Source: a virus
Length of the DNA: 23,648 bases
Virus record (IMG/VR): IMGVR_UViG_3300025645_000456
Span: 1 to 23,648 of that record
Strand: one strand, 5' to 3'
The position numbers were made by a program, and so were the translations under genes. A model generated the notes under the pieces. It made no database searches and was not told where the DNA came from. It saw only the letters and a list, made by a program, of their open reading frames with translations. Below are positions 1,573 to 23,648 of the stretch, in pieces. The first letter of the stretch is position 1. Every line of letters starts with the position of its first letter.

Positions 1573-1675
1573 AAGTCCCTGCAAAGGAATTTGTGTGTTG
1601 GACAAGGAACGAGTTAAGTGTATCGGGTGTGGACGAACCATCGAAGAGATAACTAACTGGGGTAAAACCAAATGA
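1553..1675 (+). CDS. DUF1289 four-cysteine mini-protein
   Basis: 40 codons from GTG 1553 to TGA 1673-1675. The residues run SPCKGICVLDKERVKCIGCG then RTIEEITNWG. The cysteines sit at 10, 14, 23 and 26 (C-x3-C-x8-C-x2-C), followed by the G-R-T-x-x-E-I-x-x-W signature of DUF1289 (SPC-x-G-x-C, C-x-G-C-G-R-T). Bacterial DUF1289 proteins are small and probably bind a metal or Fe-S centre; their function is unknown. The gene overlaps the membrane protein by 20 nt and the lysozyme start by 4 nt (ATGA), so it looks translationally coupled inside the lysis cassette. The GTG start is the only reasonable one, with AGG five bases upstream. The intact motif argues strongly that it is a real gene. Confidence 0.8.
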   Translation: MTPKESKSPCKGICVLDKERVKCIGCGRTIEEITNWGKTK

Positions 1676-2157
1676 AATACAGAACAGAACATTTCCTAGA
1701 TAAGTTAATTCACCATGAGGGTATGGTGCTTACTGTATATGAAGACAGTTTGGGCATCGAAACTATAGGAATAGGTAGGAACCTCAAGGACAGGGGTATC
1801 ACCAAAGAAGAGCTAGACTACATGGACATCCCTAACATGGATGTAGTCTACGAACACGGTATTACCGAAGCCGACGCTCGTTACCTTGCCATGAACGACA
1901 TACGCATTGTTGAAAACGAATTGTGTCGAGTACATCCTTGCGTCGAAGACTTAGATAGTGTAAGACAGTTGATACTAATGGACATGGCGTTTAATATGGG
2001 GGTTCCCAGATTGTGTAAGTTTAAGAACATGTGGGGTGCAATTTACGATGGTAACTACGAGATAGCATCTATAGAAATGATGGATTCCAGATGGGCAAAG
2101 CAAGTGGGTTCGAGGGCCGTTAAACTTTCGGATGCGATGAAAGCGGGGGAGTTTTAG
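1672..2157 (+). CDS. Endolysin, T4-type lysozyme (GH24)
   Basis: 161 residues, the usual size for a phage GH24 muramidase, which cuts the MurNAc-GlcNAc bond of peptidoglycan. The N-terminus carries HHEGMVLTVYEDSLGIETIG, with catalytic Glu16, Asp25 and Thr31 at exactly the E-x8-D-x5-T spacing of T4 lysozyme. The helical lobe includes LILMDMAFNMG, the family's N-M-G substrate-cleft region, and MDSRWAKQVGSRA near the end, the usual W-x-x-Q-x-x-x-R-A. There is no signal peptide or signal anchor, so export depends on the holin. The start is in an ATGA overlap with the DUF1289 gene. Confidence 0.93.
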   Translation: MKYRTEHFLDKLIHHEGMVLTVYEDSLGIETIGIGRNLKDRGITKEELDYMDIPNMDVVYEHGITEADARYLAMNDIRIVENELCRVHPCVEDLDSVRQLILMDMAFNMGVPRLCKFKNMWGAIYDGNYEIASIEMMDSRWAKQVGSRAVKLSDAMKAGEF

Positions 2158-2158
2158 G

Positions 2159-2383
2159 GTGGCATACACAGAAACAAAAAGTAAAGGGTCTTCAACAGTA
2201 AAACAAGTGTATTCAGGCCAAGACCCTAAAACGGGATTTAGTCGGTTTATTGGAAGTGCCAAACCTAGCAAGGGACGTAAGGCAGCAAAAAGCGCAGAAA
2301 CATCAATTTTTGAAGATGTTGGTATCGCGGTTTCTGAGTTTTATGAAAAAGCAAAAACAACTTATAAGGACTATGTAAAATAG
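2159..2383 (+). CDS. Unknown small basic protein
   Basis: 74 residues from GTG 2159, one base after the lysozyme stop, with a GGGGGAG ribosome site seven bases upstream. The first half is polar and basic (QVYSGQDPKTGFSRFIGSAK). The second half is a predicted amphipathic helix (FEDVGIAVSEFYEKAKTTYK). It has no Cys pair, membrane segment or enzyme motif, and I do not recognise a family. Its stop codon directly abuts the start of the oxygenase-like gene, so the two are probably translated together. Whether it helps that protein or belongs to the lysis/virion genes cannot be told. Confidence 0.6.
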   Translation: MAYTETKSKGSSTVKQVYSGQDPKTGFSRFIGSAKPSKGRKAAKSAETSIFEDVGIAVSEFYEKAKTTYKDYVK

Positions 2384-3457
2384 ATGCCACCTCGTAATCA
2401 CAGGGATTGGGTCAAGACTCCCAAAGTAGAACACATCAGTTCGTTGATTTATTCTAGTCACGACATCTACAAACAGGAACAAGAAAACATCTTTTCCAAA
2501 GTTTGGGTTCCCTGTTTTCACAAGAGCGAGTTACCGAACGAGTTAGATTTTCGAACAGGGCAGATAGCAGGACAGAACATCCTTGCTTACAACACAGGCA
2601 CAGAAATCAGAGCCTATCGTAACTACGACATAGTGCAGCCATCTGGTACGTTTGCTGCTCAAGTGGTTACTTCTGAACCACGATTACATTGTGAAGTGAA
2701 ACATGGCGGCATGGTCTGGATTACCCTAGACCCGAACCCTACCATGTCAGTAGAGGAGTGGACCTGTGGTGCTTTTGATTGTATTGAGGATGCTATCGAC
2801 ACTGAAGAAATGGAAGTTTTTCACTATCACAAGGCAGTAATAGATACAAACTACAAGCTGTGGCACGATACCAACAGCGAGTTTTACCACGATTTCATGC
2901 ACTACTTTAATCGTGTGTCAGGTTTTAACGATGAATACTTTGCTAGAAAGAACATACCATTCGATAACGGACATGTTAATGTTAGCAGCTTCACCGTTAA
3001 CTACGAAGAATACGATGGCTTTGAGGATAGAGGAGAGCTTAGTTTCCCTAACTTGCCACCCAATCAATGGTACATGGTTGACCTGTTCCCCGGATTTAAT
3101 TTTAATCTTCGCGGTAGTGCTTATCGAAGCGACAGCGTTACACCTCTTGGGCCAAACAAAGTTCTTATTGAGTTTCGCGGGTATGGTCTTAAAAAGGATA
3201 CCCCAGAGGAACGGCAGACTCGTATTAAGCATCACAACTCTATTTGGGGTCCATTTGGGCGTAACCTGCACGAAGACCTTATCGGCGTAGCAGGTCAGGG
3301 TACAACAATGCGCGAGGGAACCGAACCCCGTAACATCTTACACGGGCGGCACGAGAACAGCACCATCCACGACGAAGTTGGTATGCGCCACTATTACGCA
3401 GAGTGGAGCAAATGGATGGGCTTGGATGCAAGTAAGTCTTGGCAATTAGCGGCGTAG
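2384..3457 (+). CDS. Rieske oxygenase alpha-subunit-like protein lacking the Rieske cluster
   Basis: 357 residues. The N-terminal part matches ring-hydroxylating oxygenase alpha subunits: NIFSKVWVPCFHKSELP (about 35-51) and IRAYRN (75-80). Asn80 falls where the family has N-x-C-x-H-R-G, but YDIVQ follows, and the later C-P-Y-H-G-W pair is absent. Only about 25 residues separate Asn80 from the post-Rieske strand GGMVWITLDPN, against about 70 normally. The catalytic domain is well kept: NYKLWHDTNSEFYHDFMH with Glu166, His169 and His173 as bridge and iron ligands, LFPGFNFNLRG, IWGPFGRNL, and ED-297/298 supplying the acidic ligand. The closest relatives I can think of are methanesulfonate monooxygenase MsmA and similar alpha subunits. 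Chemistry without the cluster is unknown. The gene is in frame and intact and abuts its neighbours, so decay is unlikely. Confidence 0.8.
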   Translation: MPPRNHRDWVKTPKVEHISSLIYSSHDIYKQEQENIFSKVWVPCFHKSELPNELDFRTGQIAGQNILAYNTGTEIRAYRNYDIVQPSGTFAAQVVTSEPRLHCEVKHGGMVWITLDPNPTMSVEEWTCGAFDCIEDAIDTEEMEVFHYHKAVIDTNYKLWHDTNSEFYHDFMHYFNRVSGFNDEYFARKNIPFDNGHVNVSSFTVNYEEYDGFEDRGELSFPNLPPNQWYMVDLFPGFNFNLRGSAYRSDSVTPLGPNKVLIEFRGYGLKKDTPEERQTRIKHHNSIWGPFGRNLHEDLIGVAGQGTTMREGTEPRNILHGRHENSTIHDEVGMRHYYAEWSKWMGLDASKSWQLAA

Positions 3458-3618: not shown

Positions 3619-3820
3619 GACAGAAAAGCCTGTAGCCGTTAGCATCACTGAGAACAGTTTTGAACTGATATTGAGAATACTGGGCAACGAGTTCATTGCC
3701 ATCCGCATAGGGTCAACGAACTTTAGTGGTAAGCTTATAGCAGGTAGTATCCTGTTACTTTTCTTTACGTTTATGCTATTAGAAGTGTTTGGTTTATCTA
3801 GGATACTGGGCATTGAGTGA
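3611..3820 (+). CDS. Small single-pass membrane protein
   Basis: 69 residues from ATG 3611. A longer reading from ATG 3575 exists, but it would overlap the upstream short gene by 44 nt and adds residues with no obvious role. The first 40 residues are polar and include FELILRILGNEFIAIRIG. Residues 41-62 form one membrane helix (KLIAGSILLLFFTFMLLEVF). The short tail ends at TGA, overlapping ATG 3820 by one base. The topology suggests a cytoplasmic N-terminal domain anchored at its C-terminus, or the reverse. There is no family match that I know. Confidence 0.62.
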   Translation: MTETEKPVAVSITENSFELILRILGNEFIAIRIGSTNFSGKLIAGSILLLFFTFMLLEVFGLSRILGIE

Positions 3821-4218
3821 TGGCTACAAAGATAAGTGAGAATACAGAAGTTGCGTTACCCTTGCGTAACATAATTAGCATGGTGGCTGCTGCATCTGTG
3901 GCAACGTGGGCATACTTTGGTATTATCGAACGCTTGAATCAATTAGAAACTAACATCACTATGATGAAGTCTGACTTGGAACAGAACACAGAGTTTCGTA
4001 TTAAGTGGCCTCGTGGTGAAATGGGTAGTCTTCCAGCAGACAGCGAACAGTTCATGCTCATTGAACACATAGCTAGTGAACTAGAAAAACTACAGAACGA
4101 AATAGAAGACGGCAAAGCACCCTACGACCAACAGCAAAAATTAACGCTAGAGTTTTACGAAAAGCGTATCACGAACTTAGAAGATAACATAGAGAAGCTA
4201 AGAAACGGCGATGATTGA
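3820..4218 (+). CDS. Membrane-anchored coiled-coil protein
   Basis: 132 residues from ATG 3820 (TGATG junction). A GTG at 3817 would add one residue. One membrane helix lies at about 17-36 (RNIISMVAAASVATWAYFGI). A coiled-coil stretch follows (IIERLNQLETNITMMKSDLE), then the segment FRIKWPRGEMGSLPADSEQF and a second long charged coiled coil to the end. I recall the central R-I-K-W-P-R-G-E-M-G segment from hypothetical proteins of marine phages. The layout is like a signal-anchored periplasmic protein and, near a lysis cassette, could suit an inner-membrane spanin, but no outer-membrane partner with a lipobox is visible. The function is unknown. Confidence 0.68.
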   Translation: MATKISENTEVALPLRNIISMVAAASVATWAYFGIIERLNQLETNITMMKSDLEQNTEFRIKWPRGEMGSLPADSEQFMLIEHIASELEKLQNEIEDGKAPYDQQQKLTLEFYEKRITNLEDNIEKLRNGDD

Positions 4219-8016: not shown

Positions 8017-9984
8017 ATGCCGGACCGTTGGCAAACATACGCCATCGAATTTAAGGGTGGCCTGATTACGAACCTGTCTCCGTTGCAGCATGGTGTTAAT
8101 GCTCCGGGGTCTGCTCGTATCCTGCGTAACTACGAGCCTTCTGTTCAGGGGGGTTATCGAACAGTCTTGGGGTACTCCAAGTACGACAGCAATTTGGTTC
8201 CCCCGTTTGGTACACCGCTGGTTCATGCAGGGTCGCAGTCAGGAACAACTCTTGTAATCGGAAACCTGTACACCACACCCGTTGCAGGGGATACCTTTAC
8301 TATAGCGGGGGTAACCGGAACGTACACAATTGCTGGAAGTGGCGTTAGTTTTAGTTCTACGAACAAACGAGCCACTCTAACTTTAACGTCTTCGCTTGCA
8401 AGTAGTCCCGCCGACCAAGCTGCAGTAACCTTCACATCTGGTGCGGGTATTATGCAGGGAGTTCATACCTTTGAAAGCGCAGTAATTGCAGCACGAGGGG
8501 ATGACCTGTTTAAATCAACAGGGTCTGGCTGGTCAAAGATAAACACGCCCAGCTATGGAACAGTGCTAGTAAATGCAGGTTCACAGACCGGAACGAGCTT
8601 AGACGTTGACGGCATAACCGGAACACCCCAAGCAGGTGATACTTTTACTATTGCAGGTGTAGCTTTAATATACACCCTAACAGCCACCCCATCAATAACC
8701 AGCGGTGGCGCAACCTTCGCTATCAATCCCGCCCTGAACAGCAGCCCTGCAGACAATGCTGTAATTACATTCCGTAGCGTAGACCGTTCAGGAATGGCTC
8801 GACACAGGTTCGCAAACTTTAATTACAGCGGCACTGACTTTATGGTAGGGGTAGATGGAGTTAATGTACCGTTTATTTATGATGGAAACACCTTTACAGC
8901 CCTAGACGGTATTCCTACAGAGGGCGTTGGAGCTAGCCACGTTGCAGACTTTAAGAACCAACTGTTTTTTGCAAAGGGTTCAAACCTCGTATTTACTTCC
9001 CCTTACACTTCTACTGATTTTTCTGCAGCCAATGGTGCGGGAACATTAAATGTAGGTAGTGCAATTACAGGGTTGATTATTTTTAGAGAACAGCTTATAA
9101 TATTTAGTGAGAGGTCTATCAAGCGATTAGTTGGAAACACCATTGCAGACTTTCAACTACAACCCATCACTCTTGATACAGGCTGTACAGAAACAGATAC
9201 AATTCAAGAGATTGGTGGGGATATCCTTTACTTAGGACCAGATGGGATTAGAAGCCTGTCTGCAACTGAAAAGATTGGGGACTTTAATTTAGCAGTTGCA
9301 TCAAAAGTTATACAGGATGATGTAACAGACTTTGTAACTGCCCACACCTCTTTTAGCAGCGTAGTCATCAGACCAAAGAGCCAGTATAGACTTTTGGGAT
9401 ACAACGCTAGTTTTACTGAATCTTCATCACGGGGTATTGTGGGTTCTCAAGTAGAACAGGCAATTAGCTGGGCAGAAATCAGAGGGTTCAAGGCGCATGT
9501 TGCCAGCAGCAACTTGTACGAGGGAACAGAAACCATCGTATTTGCTAATGACAACGGGTATGTTTACAAGATGGAATCTGGGAACAGCATGGACGGGGCT
9601 GACATCTTCTCCACCTTTGCAACACCCTTCATACCCATAAATGACCCTCGTGTTCGCAAAACCATATACAAGTTATTTTTGTACGCAGACCCAGATGGCA
9701 GTTTAATTAGTGAAGTAAACTTACTGTTTGATTTTAATGATTCAAATGTAATTCAACCCGCTGCTTTTAATTTCAACAACACATCGGGGTCAGGTGTTCC
9801 AGCATTCTACGGAACCGCCGTTTACGCAACAAACACCTACGGCGGCACAGTACAGAAATTATTTGAAAGCCAGACAGTCGGTTCTGGGTATGTTGTTTCG
9901 GTGCAGTTTCGCACAAACTCGACAAACGCACCACACTCACTAGACGCAGTTACGCTCGAATACGGCACTTACGGGCGGCGATAA
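8017..9984 (+). CDS. Tail hub/nozzle protein (P22 gp10 or T7 gp12 type)
   Basis: 655 residues. It begins IEFKGGLITNLSPLQHGVNA then PGSARILRNYEPSVQGGYR, the opening of podovirus tail-hub proteins: substrate-free beta propellers that stabilise packaged DNA and link adaptor to needle or fibres. Propeller-like strands include LIIFREQLIIFSERSIKRLV, ILYLGPDGIRSLS and FANDNGYVYKMESG. Two copies of a 70-80 residue inserted domain occur at about 65-141 and 181-253, each with AGSQ-(S/T)-GT, AGDTFTIAGV and SSPAD. The C-terminus has VRKTIYKLFLYADPDG and an FRTNSTNAPHSLDAVTLEYG end. Which of the two classes is closer cannot be settled by eye. Confidence 0.75.
   Translation: MPDRWQTYAIEFKGGLITNLSPLQHGVNAPGSARILRNYEPSVQGGYRTVLGYSKYDSNLVPPFGTPLVHAGSQSGTTLVIGNLYTTPVAGDTFTIAGVTGTYTIAGSGVSFSSTNKRATLTLTSSLASSPADQAAVTFTSGAGIMQGVHTFESAVIAARGDDLFKSTGSGWSKINTPSYGTVLVNAGSQTGTSLDVDGITGTPQAGDTFTIAGVALIYTLTATPSITSGGATFAINPALNSSPADNAVITFRSVDRSGMARHRFANFNYSGTDFMVGVDGVNVPFIYDGNTFTALDGIPTEGVGASHVADFKNQLFFAKGSNLVFTSPYTSTDFSAANGAGTLNVGSAITGLIIFREQLIIFSERSIKRLVGNTIADFQLQPITLDTGCTETDTIQEIGGDILYLGPDGIRSLSATEKIGDFNLAVASKVIQDDVTDFVTAHTSFSSVVIRPKSQYRLLGYNASFTESSSRGIVGSQVEQAISWAEIRGFKAHVASSNLYEGTETIVFANDNGYVYKMESGNSMDGADIFSTFATPFIPINDPRVRKTIYKLFLYADPDGSLISEVNLLFDFNDSNVIQPAAFNFNNTSGSGVPAFYGTAVYATNTYGGTVQKLFESQTVGSGYVVSVQFRTNSTNAPHSLDAVTLEYGTYGRR
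8209..8775 (+). repeat. Duplicated domain inside the tail hub gene
   Basis: Copy 1 covers about 8209-8439 and copy 2 about 8557-8775. At protein level both run V-(H/N)-AGSQ-(S/T)-GT, then AGDTFTIAGV, then SSPAD followed by V-(T/I)-F. Between them is a segment (FESAVIAARGDDLFK) that reads as the core propeller. The copies differ a great deal in DNA sequence, so the duplication is old and not a recent slippage. Confidence 0.75.
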
Positions 9985-22848: not shown

Positions 22849-22990
22849 TGTCTTCATCCTCTGGTAAATATACCATTACAAACGCATTGCAAGTTGGGCA
22901 ACTCAGGTTGGTTTCCATAACAAACCCATCTAGGTCTGAGTCATGGTCACCACCCCAAATTAACTCACTATTACAGTGCCAGCAATTCAT
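22841..22990 (-). CDS. Zinc-ribbon mini-protein
   Basis: 49 codons on the minus strand, from ATG at 22990 to TAA at 22841-22843. It begins MNCWHCNSELIWGGDHDSD and continues TNLSCPTCNAFVMVYLPE. The two C-x2-C knuckles (Cys3/Cys6 and Cys31/Cys34) make a zinc ribbon of a type I recognise as widespread in tailed phages, with W-G-G-D-H-D after the first knuckle. The role is unproved; nucleic-acid or protein contact is likely. The start is in an ATGA overlap with the ribonucleotide reductase stop, and the end overlaps the next start by 8 nt. Confidence 0.82.
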   Translation of the reverse strand: MNCWHCNSELIWGGDHDSDLDGFVMETNLSCPTCNAFVMVYLPEDEDNE

Positions 22991-23648
22991 GCTGCTGTCA
23001 AGTCTACGATTTCACACACCCCTGATGAACAGGCAAGCTCCTGCGAACCACTGGTGTTATCTTCTTTCTCGAACTCTGCTAGGTTCTCCCAGTCAATGTG
23101 AACCACATTCATACGCTCCTGCCACTCCGTATACTCATCAGGCTCTATGTCTTGATAGGGTGCCTGCTGATATGTGTGGTCACTGTGAGGCAGGAACGAT
23201 ACACCAGAGGCTACATCAAAGTTCTCGTACACCCATGCACCAACTTCCATCCACTCGTGTTCCTTCACAGTTACAGTGATGGATGGCTTGTGTTCGCACC
23301 AGTGTATAGCGTAAGTCTTCCACAGTTCTAACTGTTCAATAGCCGACATCTGTGTTCTTGTAACGGCACCTGATGGTGACTTCATAGGAAAGCTAAACAC
23401 AGTAACACTGTCAGGCTTACCCATGTCTCTCTCTGATGGCACACCACTATTGATAAGGAACTGTGTCAACGGGTCTTTGTTATCGCCGCGAACTGTCCTG
23501 ATAAAGTGGTCGTTGTGTCTTGCATGTATCCCGCTTGCTGCGTCCACCAGTTGAGACACAGTACCCGACGGCTTTACACAGGTGATTGCACTGCTCACTG
23601 GGATTCCAAGCATGTTCGCAAACTCCCGGTTCGTATCTACTGCGACTT
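22987..23648 (-). CDS. nrdJ: Class II (B12-dependent) ribonucleotide reductase, C-terminal part
   Basis: About 219 residues, open past the right window edge, so the N-terminal part is missing. The piece starts VAVDTNREFANMLGIPVSSA and holds AITCVKPSGTVSQLVDAASG, with the conserved C and PSGT of ribonucleotide reductases, HARHNDHFIRTVRGDNKDPL, and a C-terminal CSSGVC (C-x4-C) that would relay electrons from thioredoxin to the active site. The pattern matches monomeric, adenosylcobalamin-type enzymes such as the Lactobacillus leichmannii class. It makes deoxynucleotides for phage replication and needs host B12. The thiyl-radical cysteine lies in or near the missing or edge part. It leads the minus-strand run, with TGA overlapping the zinc-ribbon ATG. 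Confidence 0.88.
   Translation of the reverse strand, partial: VAVDTNREFANMLGIPVSSAITCVKPSGTVSQLVDAASGIHARHNDHFIRTVRGDNKDPLTQFLINSGVPSERDMGKPDSVTVFSFPMKSPSGAVTRTQMSAIEQLELWKTYAIHWCEHKPSITVTVKEHEWMEVGAWVYENFDVASGVSFLPHSDHTYQQAPYQDIEPDEYTEWQERMNVVHIDWENLAEFEKEDNTSGSQELACSSGVCEIVDLTAA

Follow-up and report, generated by a model that had tools for sequence, protein, structure and literature searches.

Phages of the HMO-2011 type rank among the most abundant viruses of the sea, and the 'MsmA' that they carry has been cited as evidence for phages steering marine sulfur metabolism, despite lacking the needed cofactor. Canonical MsmA, the alpha subunit of methanesulfonate monooxygenase (MSAMO), the enzyme that turns methanesulfonate into formaldehyde and sulfite, as found in Filomicrobium and in SAR116 MED-G04, holds both a Rieske cluster (motif CXH-X26-CXXH) and an iron site in one chain, and its operon encodes a separate plant-type reductase, MsmD. 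In 2015 this motif, called specific to MsmA, was reported missing in the MsmA of HMO-2011, in one of two MsmA copies (the second) of IMCC1322 (Ca. Puniceispirillum marinum), and in virome and GOS sequences (PMC4433239). That report notes the absence of the motif alone, and contains neither a partner with a decayed iron site nor a proposal of complementation. The closest precedent for a cluster-less iron subunit working with a Rieske-bearing reductase is the 7-methylxanthine demethylase NdmC/NdmD(/NdmE) of Pseudomonas putida CBB5, which its published description sets apart as another Rieske-oxygenase family and reductase; NdmC is without a Rieske cluster, while the reductase NdmD carries an additional one (PMC4408171). 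In the carnitine monooxygenase CntA, the distance between Rieske cluster and iron is 44 Å within a subunit but 12.2 Å across the subunit interface, and mutants of the bridging residue Glu205 are inactive (PMC7948474). Because Rieske electrons cross between neighbouring subunits, a chain that holds only the cluster and a chain that holds only the iron can complement each other.

The stretch of DNA that we analysed, referred to as the window, is a virus record of 23,648 bases with lysozyme, tail and other structural genes. On its plus strand, positions 2384-3457 form an ORF whose 357-aa translation is a short MsmA-like protein, a homologue of Rieske oxygenase alpha subunits that bears the iron site and lacks the Rieske domain. 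Pfam analysis of this ORF matched PF00848 (Ring_hydroxyl_A, the catalytic part of alpha subunits in Rieske oxygenases) and found no Rieske domain (PF00355); full-length MsmA matched both. The protein is 74% identical over 351 residues to HMO-2011 gp61 (NC_021864), which, like the MsmA-like sequences from viromes and GOS (PMC4433239), belongs to the same family and lacks the same Rieske motif. Among 50,697 phage records, relatives were found only in two records of Puniceispirillum phage HMO-2011, where they are annotated as methanesulfonate monooxygenase. Of the HMO-2011-type isolates, HMO-2011 alone carries the gene; RCA-roseophages and other Roseobacter phages and pelagiphages are without it.

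A phage lysozyme gene (1672-2157, plus strand; PF00959, E 4.6e-9) lies just upstream of the short msmA, and a lysozyme is also found near the msmA gene of HMO-2011. Between the two genes of the window is a 74-aa ORF (2159-2383, plus strand) whose stop abuts the msmA start; HMO-2011 gp62 occupies the same place, yet the two are not homologous. Downstream, positions 3817-4218 of the plus strand encode a holin-like protein assigned to phrog_20984 (PHROGs); a single weak Pfam match of the downstream ORF to a kinesin coiled coil was dismissed as coiled-coil noise. The window's tail protein (8017-9984) is 56.5% identical over its full length to that of Roseobacter phage CRP-345, versus 38.5% to that of HMO-2011, where the match is confined to residues 257-655. 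With its HMO-2011-like structural genes and gene neighbourhood, the window is an HMO-2011-type marine phage. Near its N-terminus, the same tail protein seemingly repeats a domain of about 75 residues in two similar copies (a weak Pfam match, pb9 B domain). At the far end of the window, positions 22987-23646 of the minus strand encode a C-terminal fragment that, judged by eye, resembles a B12-dependent (class II) ribonucleotide reductase; the fragment had no Pfam match.

We then compared the protein with full-length MsmA, to which it is homologous outside the lobe and with which it shares an identical iron site. The stretch RAFL...GGFVW spans 84 residues in 34/34 full-length MsmA versus 37 in the window, and alignment to the canonical protein of locus L104 places 47 missing residues in a gap that contains all four Rieske [2Fe-2S] ligands (C86, H88, C115 and H118 in L104 numbering). 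The CXH-X26-CXXH motif is accordingly absent from the window protein. An earlier note on this DNA had described the loss of 45-50 residues at the cluster loop with the frame intact, and the alignment bore this out, with the reading frame unbroken. Its description of a clean excision stood only in part: the deletion is real, but it has no single sharp edge at present, as the 20-odd residues of the remnant vary among viruses. Residues 1-81 (2384-2626, plus strand) form the base of the former Rieske domain and keep its framework strands (residues 42-46, 55-61, 64-70 and 75-79, pLDDT ~97; omega 0.15). In the model, only the cluster-binding lobe is gone and the beta framework around it remains. According to the alignment and the table of ligands, the lobe is replaced by a remnant loop of residues 80-100 (2621-2683, plus strand; omega 0.43, mean identity 31%), followed by the strand LHCEVKHGGMVWITLDP (2684-2734, plus strand), which aligns to LRCEVKFGGFVWINLND of full-length MsmA.

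The remainder of the protein was, as the earlier note had stated, well kept. The bridging carboxylate Glu166 (2879-2881) and the iron ligands His169 (2888-2890), His173 (2900-2902) and Asp298 of the LHED motif (3275-3277), all encoded on the plus strand, are present in the window protein, in 195/195 non-redundant short forms and in 34/34 full-length MsmA. None of the 195 short forms has a Rieske ligand, and none has CXH...CXXH in the same chain. This count excludes L133 and L135, whose apparent status as short bacterial forms (84 or 158 residues) proved to be an artefact of masked or shifted sequence and a mis-set start. An AlphaFold2 model of the window protein (pLDDT 84.6, pTM 0.87) has the fold of a Rieske-oxygenase alpha subunit (VIA Z of about 32 over 322 residues), with Z values of 29-32 over about 300-320 residues for matches to the alpha subunits of the biphenyl, toluene and terephthalate dioxygenases and CntA. 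The window protein thus combines the Ring_hydroxyl_A fold with a 2-His-1-carboxylate site and a bridging Asp/Glu. The solved structures of CntA and of the terephthalate and biphenyl dioxygenase alpha subunits share with the model both the fold and the logic of the bridging carboxylate (PMC7948474); unlike the window protein, they have their own Rieske cluster. Among Rieske oxygenases its closest homology is to MsmA, at 53-59% identity across the protein to full-length MsmA encoded in msm operons, the range also returned for methylotrophs in a scan of 84,980 species' genomes. Within the catalytic domain the identity to full-length MsmA is about 76%, and the tree agrees on the affinity to MsmA.

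Relatives of the gene were found on at least 599 IMG/VR contigs, and with one pattern in all 195 short forms the deletion goes well past anything that chance would produce. Among the viral contexts, 178 contigs had HMO-2011-type neighbours, 28 had class I ribonucleotide reductase genes, and 2 had both. The viral group with nrdA/nrdB and a short msmA includes L178 (the same contig as L097 and L255), L269, L272 and L274-L280, some of them 80-220 kb long. Viral copies were free of stops in 273/274 cases, and omega values (NG86) for the viral short forms were 0.047 in the catalytic domain, 0.013 in the iron core and 0.43 in the remnant loop. The dN/dS comparison proposed in the earlier note revealed strong purifying selection on the catalytic domain, and together with the near absence of stops and the retention of Glu166 in 195/195 short forms it upheld the view that the deletion was selected and is not random decay. 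The other suggestion, of a deletion too recent for the bridge to have drifted, failed. The same deletion is found in hundreds of divergent relatives, which rules out a recent private event, and is common to a diverse clade of viral genes and chromosomal genes of SAR116, which stands apart from full-length MsmA on a long branch with full support. No partial-lobe intermediates were found in the alignment of full-length and short forms, where segment lengths were bimodal, either 84 or 34-44 residues.

The SAR116 genes provided a counterpart to the viral ones. In the scan of 84,980 species' genomes, a short gene 74-79% identical to the window was found on SAR116 chromosomal contigs of up to 606 kb, as part of an msm operon, a context that makes methanesulfonate its putative substrate. 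The order of this operon is a divergent msmE, a partner gene in the msmA slot, msmB, msmC, an ORF of 270-280 aa, the short msmA and a LysR gene. The partner ORF (796-857 aa) retains an intact CPHRG...CMFHAW, but its catalytic domain has decayed, and it is fused to an FAD/NADH reductase; in Pfam it matches PF00355, Pyr_redox_2 and Reductase_C without PF00848, while the short form matches PF00848 without PF00355. The fusion is present in nearly all copies, one partner ORF (in genome G007) stopping at 341 aa with no fused reductase in frame. The fused reductase is of the glutathione-reductase type in the partner loci L174:4157-6553, L089:3243-5690 and L083-L098, and it replaces the separate plant-type MsmD of canonical operons (L104:10306-11349). 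In most SAR116 loci the 270-280 aa ORF (L174:12555-13385; L089:6921-7745) immediately precedes the short msmA, and it has no Pfam or NCBIfam match; its relatives are found near full-length msm operons, often on the opposite strand. Between its msmC and its short msmA, the probable IMCC1322 genome has a DMSO-reductase-like cluster that encodes a molybdopterin oxidoreductase, a 4Fe-4S protein and DmsC (L174:7912-12502). A phylogenomic study of SAR116 mentions msmA next to dmsABC without noting a split (PMC8547437).

Decay in the partners was the reciprocal of that in the short forms. The Rieske ligands C, H, C and H are present in 17/17 non-redundant partners, none of which has an intact iron site: the bridging Glu, the first His and the Asp occur in none, and a His stands at the column of His173 in 1/17. 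Complete Rieske and iron sites are found in 34/34 full-length MsmA. We used amino-acid identity for the partners and bacterial short forms, since dN/dS had just 1-3 usable pairs there. Mean pairwise identity among partners was 96% in the Rieske lobe versus 24% in the iron core, and among viral short forms 31% in the lobe remnant (34-44 residues) versus 96% in the iron core; full-length MsmA had 88% and 96%, respectively. The probable IMCC1322 genome (G092, a single contig of 2,753,527 bases) encodes both partner and short gene; there, the partner's catalytic domain is still alignable to MsmA, with E replaced by K, H by Q, the second H missing or K by alignment, and LHED gone. The predicted structure of the partner, at modest confidence (pLDDT 68), is nevertheless a full alpha fold, with terephthalate dioxygenase as best match (E 6.9e-21). 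The absence of the Rieske motif was already published; the SAR116 partner with the reciprocal loss is new here, and the open literature that we searched held no earlier description of a split MsmA pair.

Of 136 Puniceispirillales genomes, 13 have an MsmA-like gene (E <= 1e-40). The short gene is present in 12, and 11 of these also have the partner; in the remaining one, the single-cell genome G005, the contig opens within the partner's reductase domain. The thirteenth, MED-G04 (G017), is the only SAR116 genome with full-length MsmA; its msmABCD is canonical, its plant-type reductase is separate, and it has no short gene and no partner. Both are present in two genomes outside this set (G011 and G016). 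Sixteen virus records, HMO-2011 among them, have the short gene only. Queries for a viral Rieske half returned no viral relative of the partner's Rieske lobe and, among the best 80 matches listed for full-length MsmA, short forms only; msmB, msmC, msmD and msmE were absent from the viral loci examined. The probable host of HMO-2011 (G092) has the split operon. SAR116 short copies as prophage genes were ruled out for loci flanked on both sides by msm and C1/sulfur genes. Short genes in two metagenome-assembled genomes, 'Hellea' (L082) and 'Rickettsiales SAT45' (L097), were not counted as bacterial, as both look like viral contigs; for L097 this is based on phage genes and an IMG/VR listing, and for L082 it is only a guess. 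The earlier note had named bacterial relatives with the same short lobe and a known activity as evidence that would go against its proposal: such relatives exist in SAR116, but no activity is known for them.

Taken with the biochemistry of related enzymes, the gene anatomy makes it fairly probable that the phage protein serves as the catalytic subunit in a split Rieske oxygenase of the methanesulfonate-monooxygenase type and draws its electrons from a host partner. The SAR116 enzyme would be divided between two alpha-type chains, a resident MsmA that keeps the Rieske cluster and a short MsmA that keeps the iron, and each may make up for what the other lacks when they assemble, together with MsmB and MsmC of the host, into a mixed oligomer. 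Electrons from NADH would then reach the Rieske cluster of the partner by way of the FAD reductase and MsmC. Glu166 would carry them over the subunit interface to the short chain's iron, the site at which methanesulfonate, or a C1-sulfonate related to it, would be oxidised. During infection the phage would make its own short catalytic subunit, presumably to its benefit, and the host would provide the Rieske partner, ferredoxin and reductase. On the split reading, Glu166 is invariant in chains without their own cluster because the bridge serves the cluster of the partner; most likely its role is the customary one, with the cluster on a different polypeptide. The whole alpha fold predicted for the partner is what should be expected of a ring subunit. 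A cluster-less catalytic chain together with a Rieske-bearing reductase, the anatomy of NdmC/NdmD, is found in SAR116, with the phage carrying the catalytic chain only. Unlike NdmC/NdmD, the MsmA-type pair has a partner that keeps a whole dead catalytic domain and a catalytic half that is carried by phage; unlike canonical MsmA, it does not have cluster and iron in one chain. Several points weigh against the split reading: in a trimer that joins two kinds of subunit head to tail, just one interface is productive; the model of the partner is of modest quality; the partner ORF of G007 lacks the fused reductase; and the reciprocal decay corresponds to one clade per partner and hence to one evolutionary history, not many independent ones.

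The same data bear on other explanations of the short protein. It might be reduced directly by the Rieske ferredoxin MsmC, or by another host ferredoxin docking in the space of the lobe, with the partner serving as a reductase carrier. An MsmC with a Rieske domain (Pfam) is indeed encoded in the same operon as the partner, and loss of the lobe could expose a docking site beside the iron. However, a Rieske lobe conserved at 96% and a whole dead alpha fold would be superfluous for a mere carrier, and NdmD, in contrast, dropped its catalytic domain; we consider direct reduction unlikely. Since the chain has no Rieske cluster and the phage genomes have no msmB, msmC, msmD or msmE, a new Rieske-independent function, for instance a peroxide-driven reaction or non-redox binding of iron or sulfonate, could also be envisaged. 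Such a function appears quite unlikely given that the bridging Glu is invariant (195/195) and that the catalytic domain shares about 90% identity with the short form of SAR116, a protein encoded in an msm operon with a Rieske partner. The new function that the earlier note had offered is likewise unneeded, as the equally short lobe of SAR116 is encoded next to a partner in which the Rieske cluster survives and the iron site is lost.

Judging from the geometry described in PMC7948474, a Rieske-less subunit entering a homotrimeric canonical MsmA would break some of its interfaces, and the phage protein could in this way be a dominant-negative decoy that shuts down the host oxygenase. A decoy would not need the constraint seen in the iron core (omega 0.013), and the catalytic subunit that the host itself encodes is built in the same way, which makes the phage copy a like-for-like substitute; we regard this role as very unlikely. 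The large internal deletion that took out a cofactor site is what a decaying pseudogene or an assembly artefact might look like, yet this explanation has next to no probability and is refuted by the intact copies (273/274 without stops), the low omega of the catalytic domain (0.047), the hundreds of independent contigs and the presence of the gene in the cultured phage HMO-2011.

The history of the two halves was approached with a tree built without the lobe columns and rooted on full-length MsmA. The short forms make up one clade (100/100) on a long branch separate from full-length MsmA, and within it the SAR116 short genes form one clade (99/95) nested in viral diversity; the partner has full-length MsmA of SAR116 as its sister group, at moderate support (86/74). 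A topology with all viral forms as one clade was not rejected (AU p = 0.135). These relationships hint that the two halves of the split operon come from different sources, the catalytic half perhaps from viruses. Compared with L030 and L059, the viral short msmA of the window (2384-3457) is a mosaic, with 98% protein and 92-93% DNA identity in the catalytic domain and 70-74% in the N-terminal 81 residues, which suggests recombination inside viral short msmA genes. The tree signal for a viral origin is weakened by this mosaicism of N-terminal and catalytic parts. As a tentative possibility, the split may have begun in viruses, with a Rieske-less phage MsmA borrowing the cluster of its host, SAR116 capturing the gene, and the host iron site then decaying. 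If true, this would give a bacterial enzyme with a catalytic subunit of viral provenance.

The host partner resolves the contradiction of a phage oxygenase gene without its cofactor: the phage gene need not encode a complete enzyme. The analysis predicts a split, two-chain methanesulfonate monooxygenase in SAR116. Markers of methanesulfonate oxidation that rely on the Rieske motif would count the partner, with its dead iron site, as a functional MsmA and overlook the catalytic chain. If the split pair is real, it would add a second example of a Rieske cluster relocated to a different chain, and the phage auxiliary gene would be one that works only in hosts with the other half.
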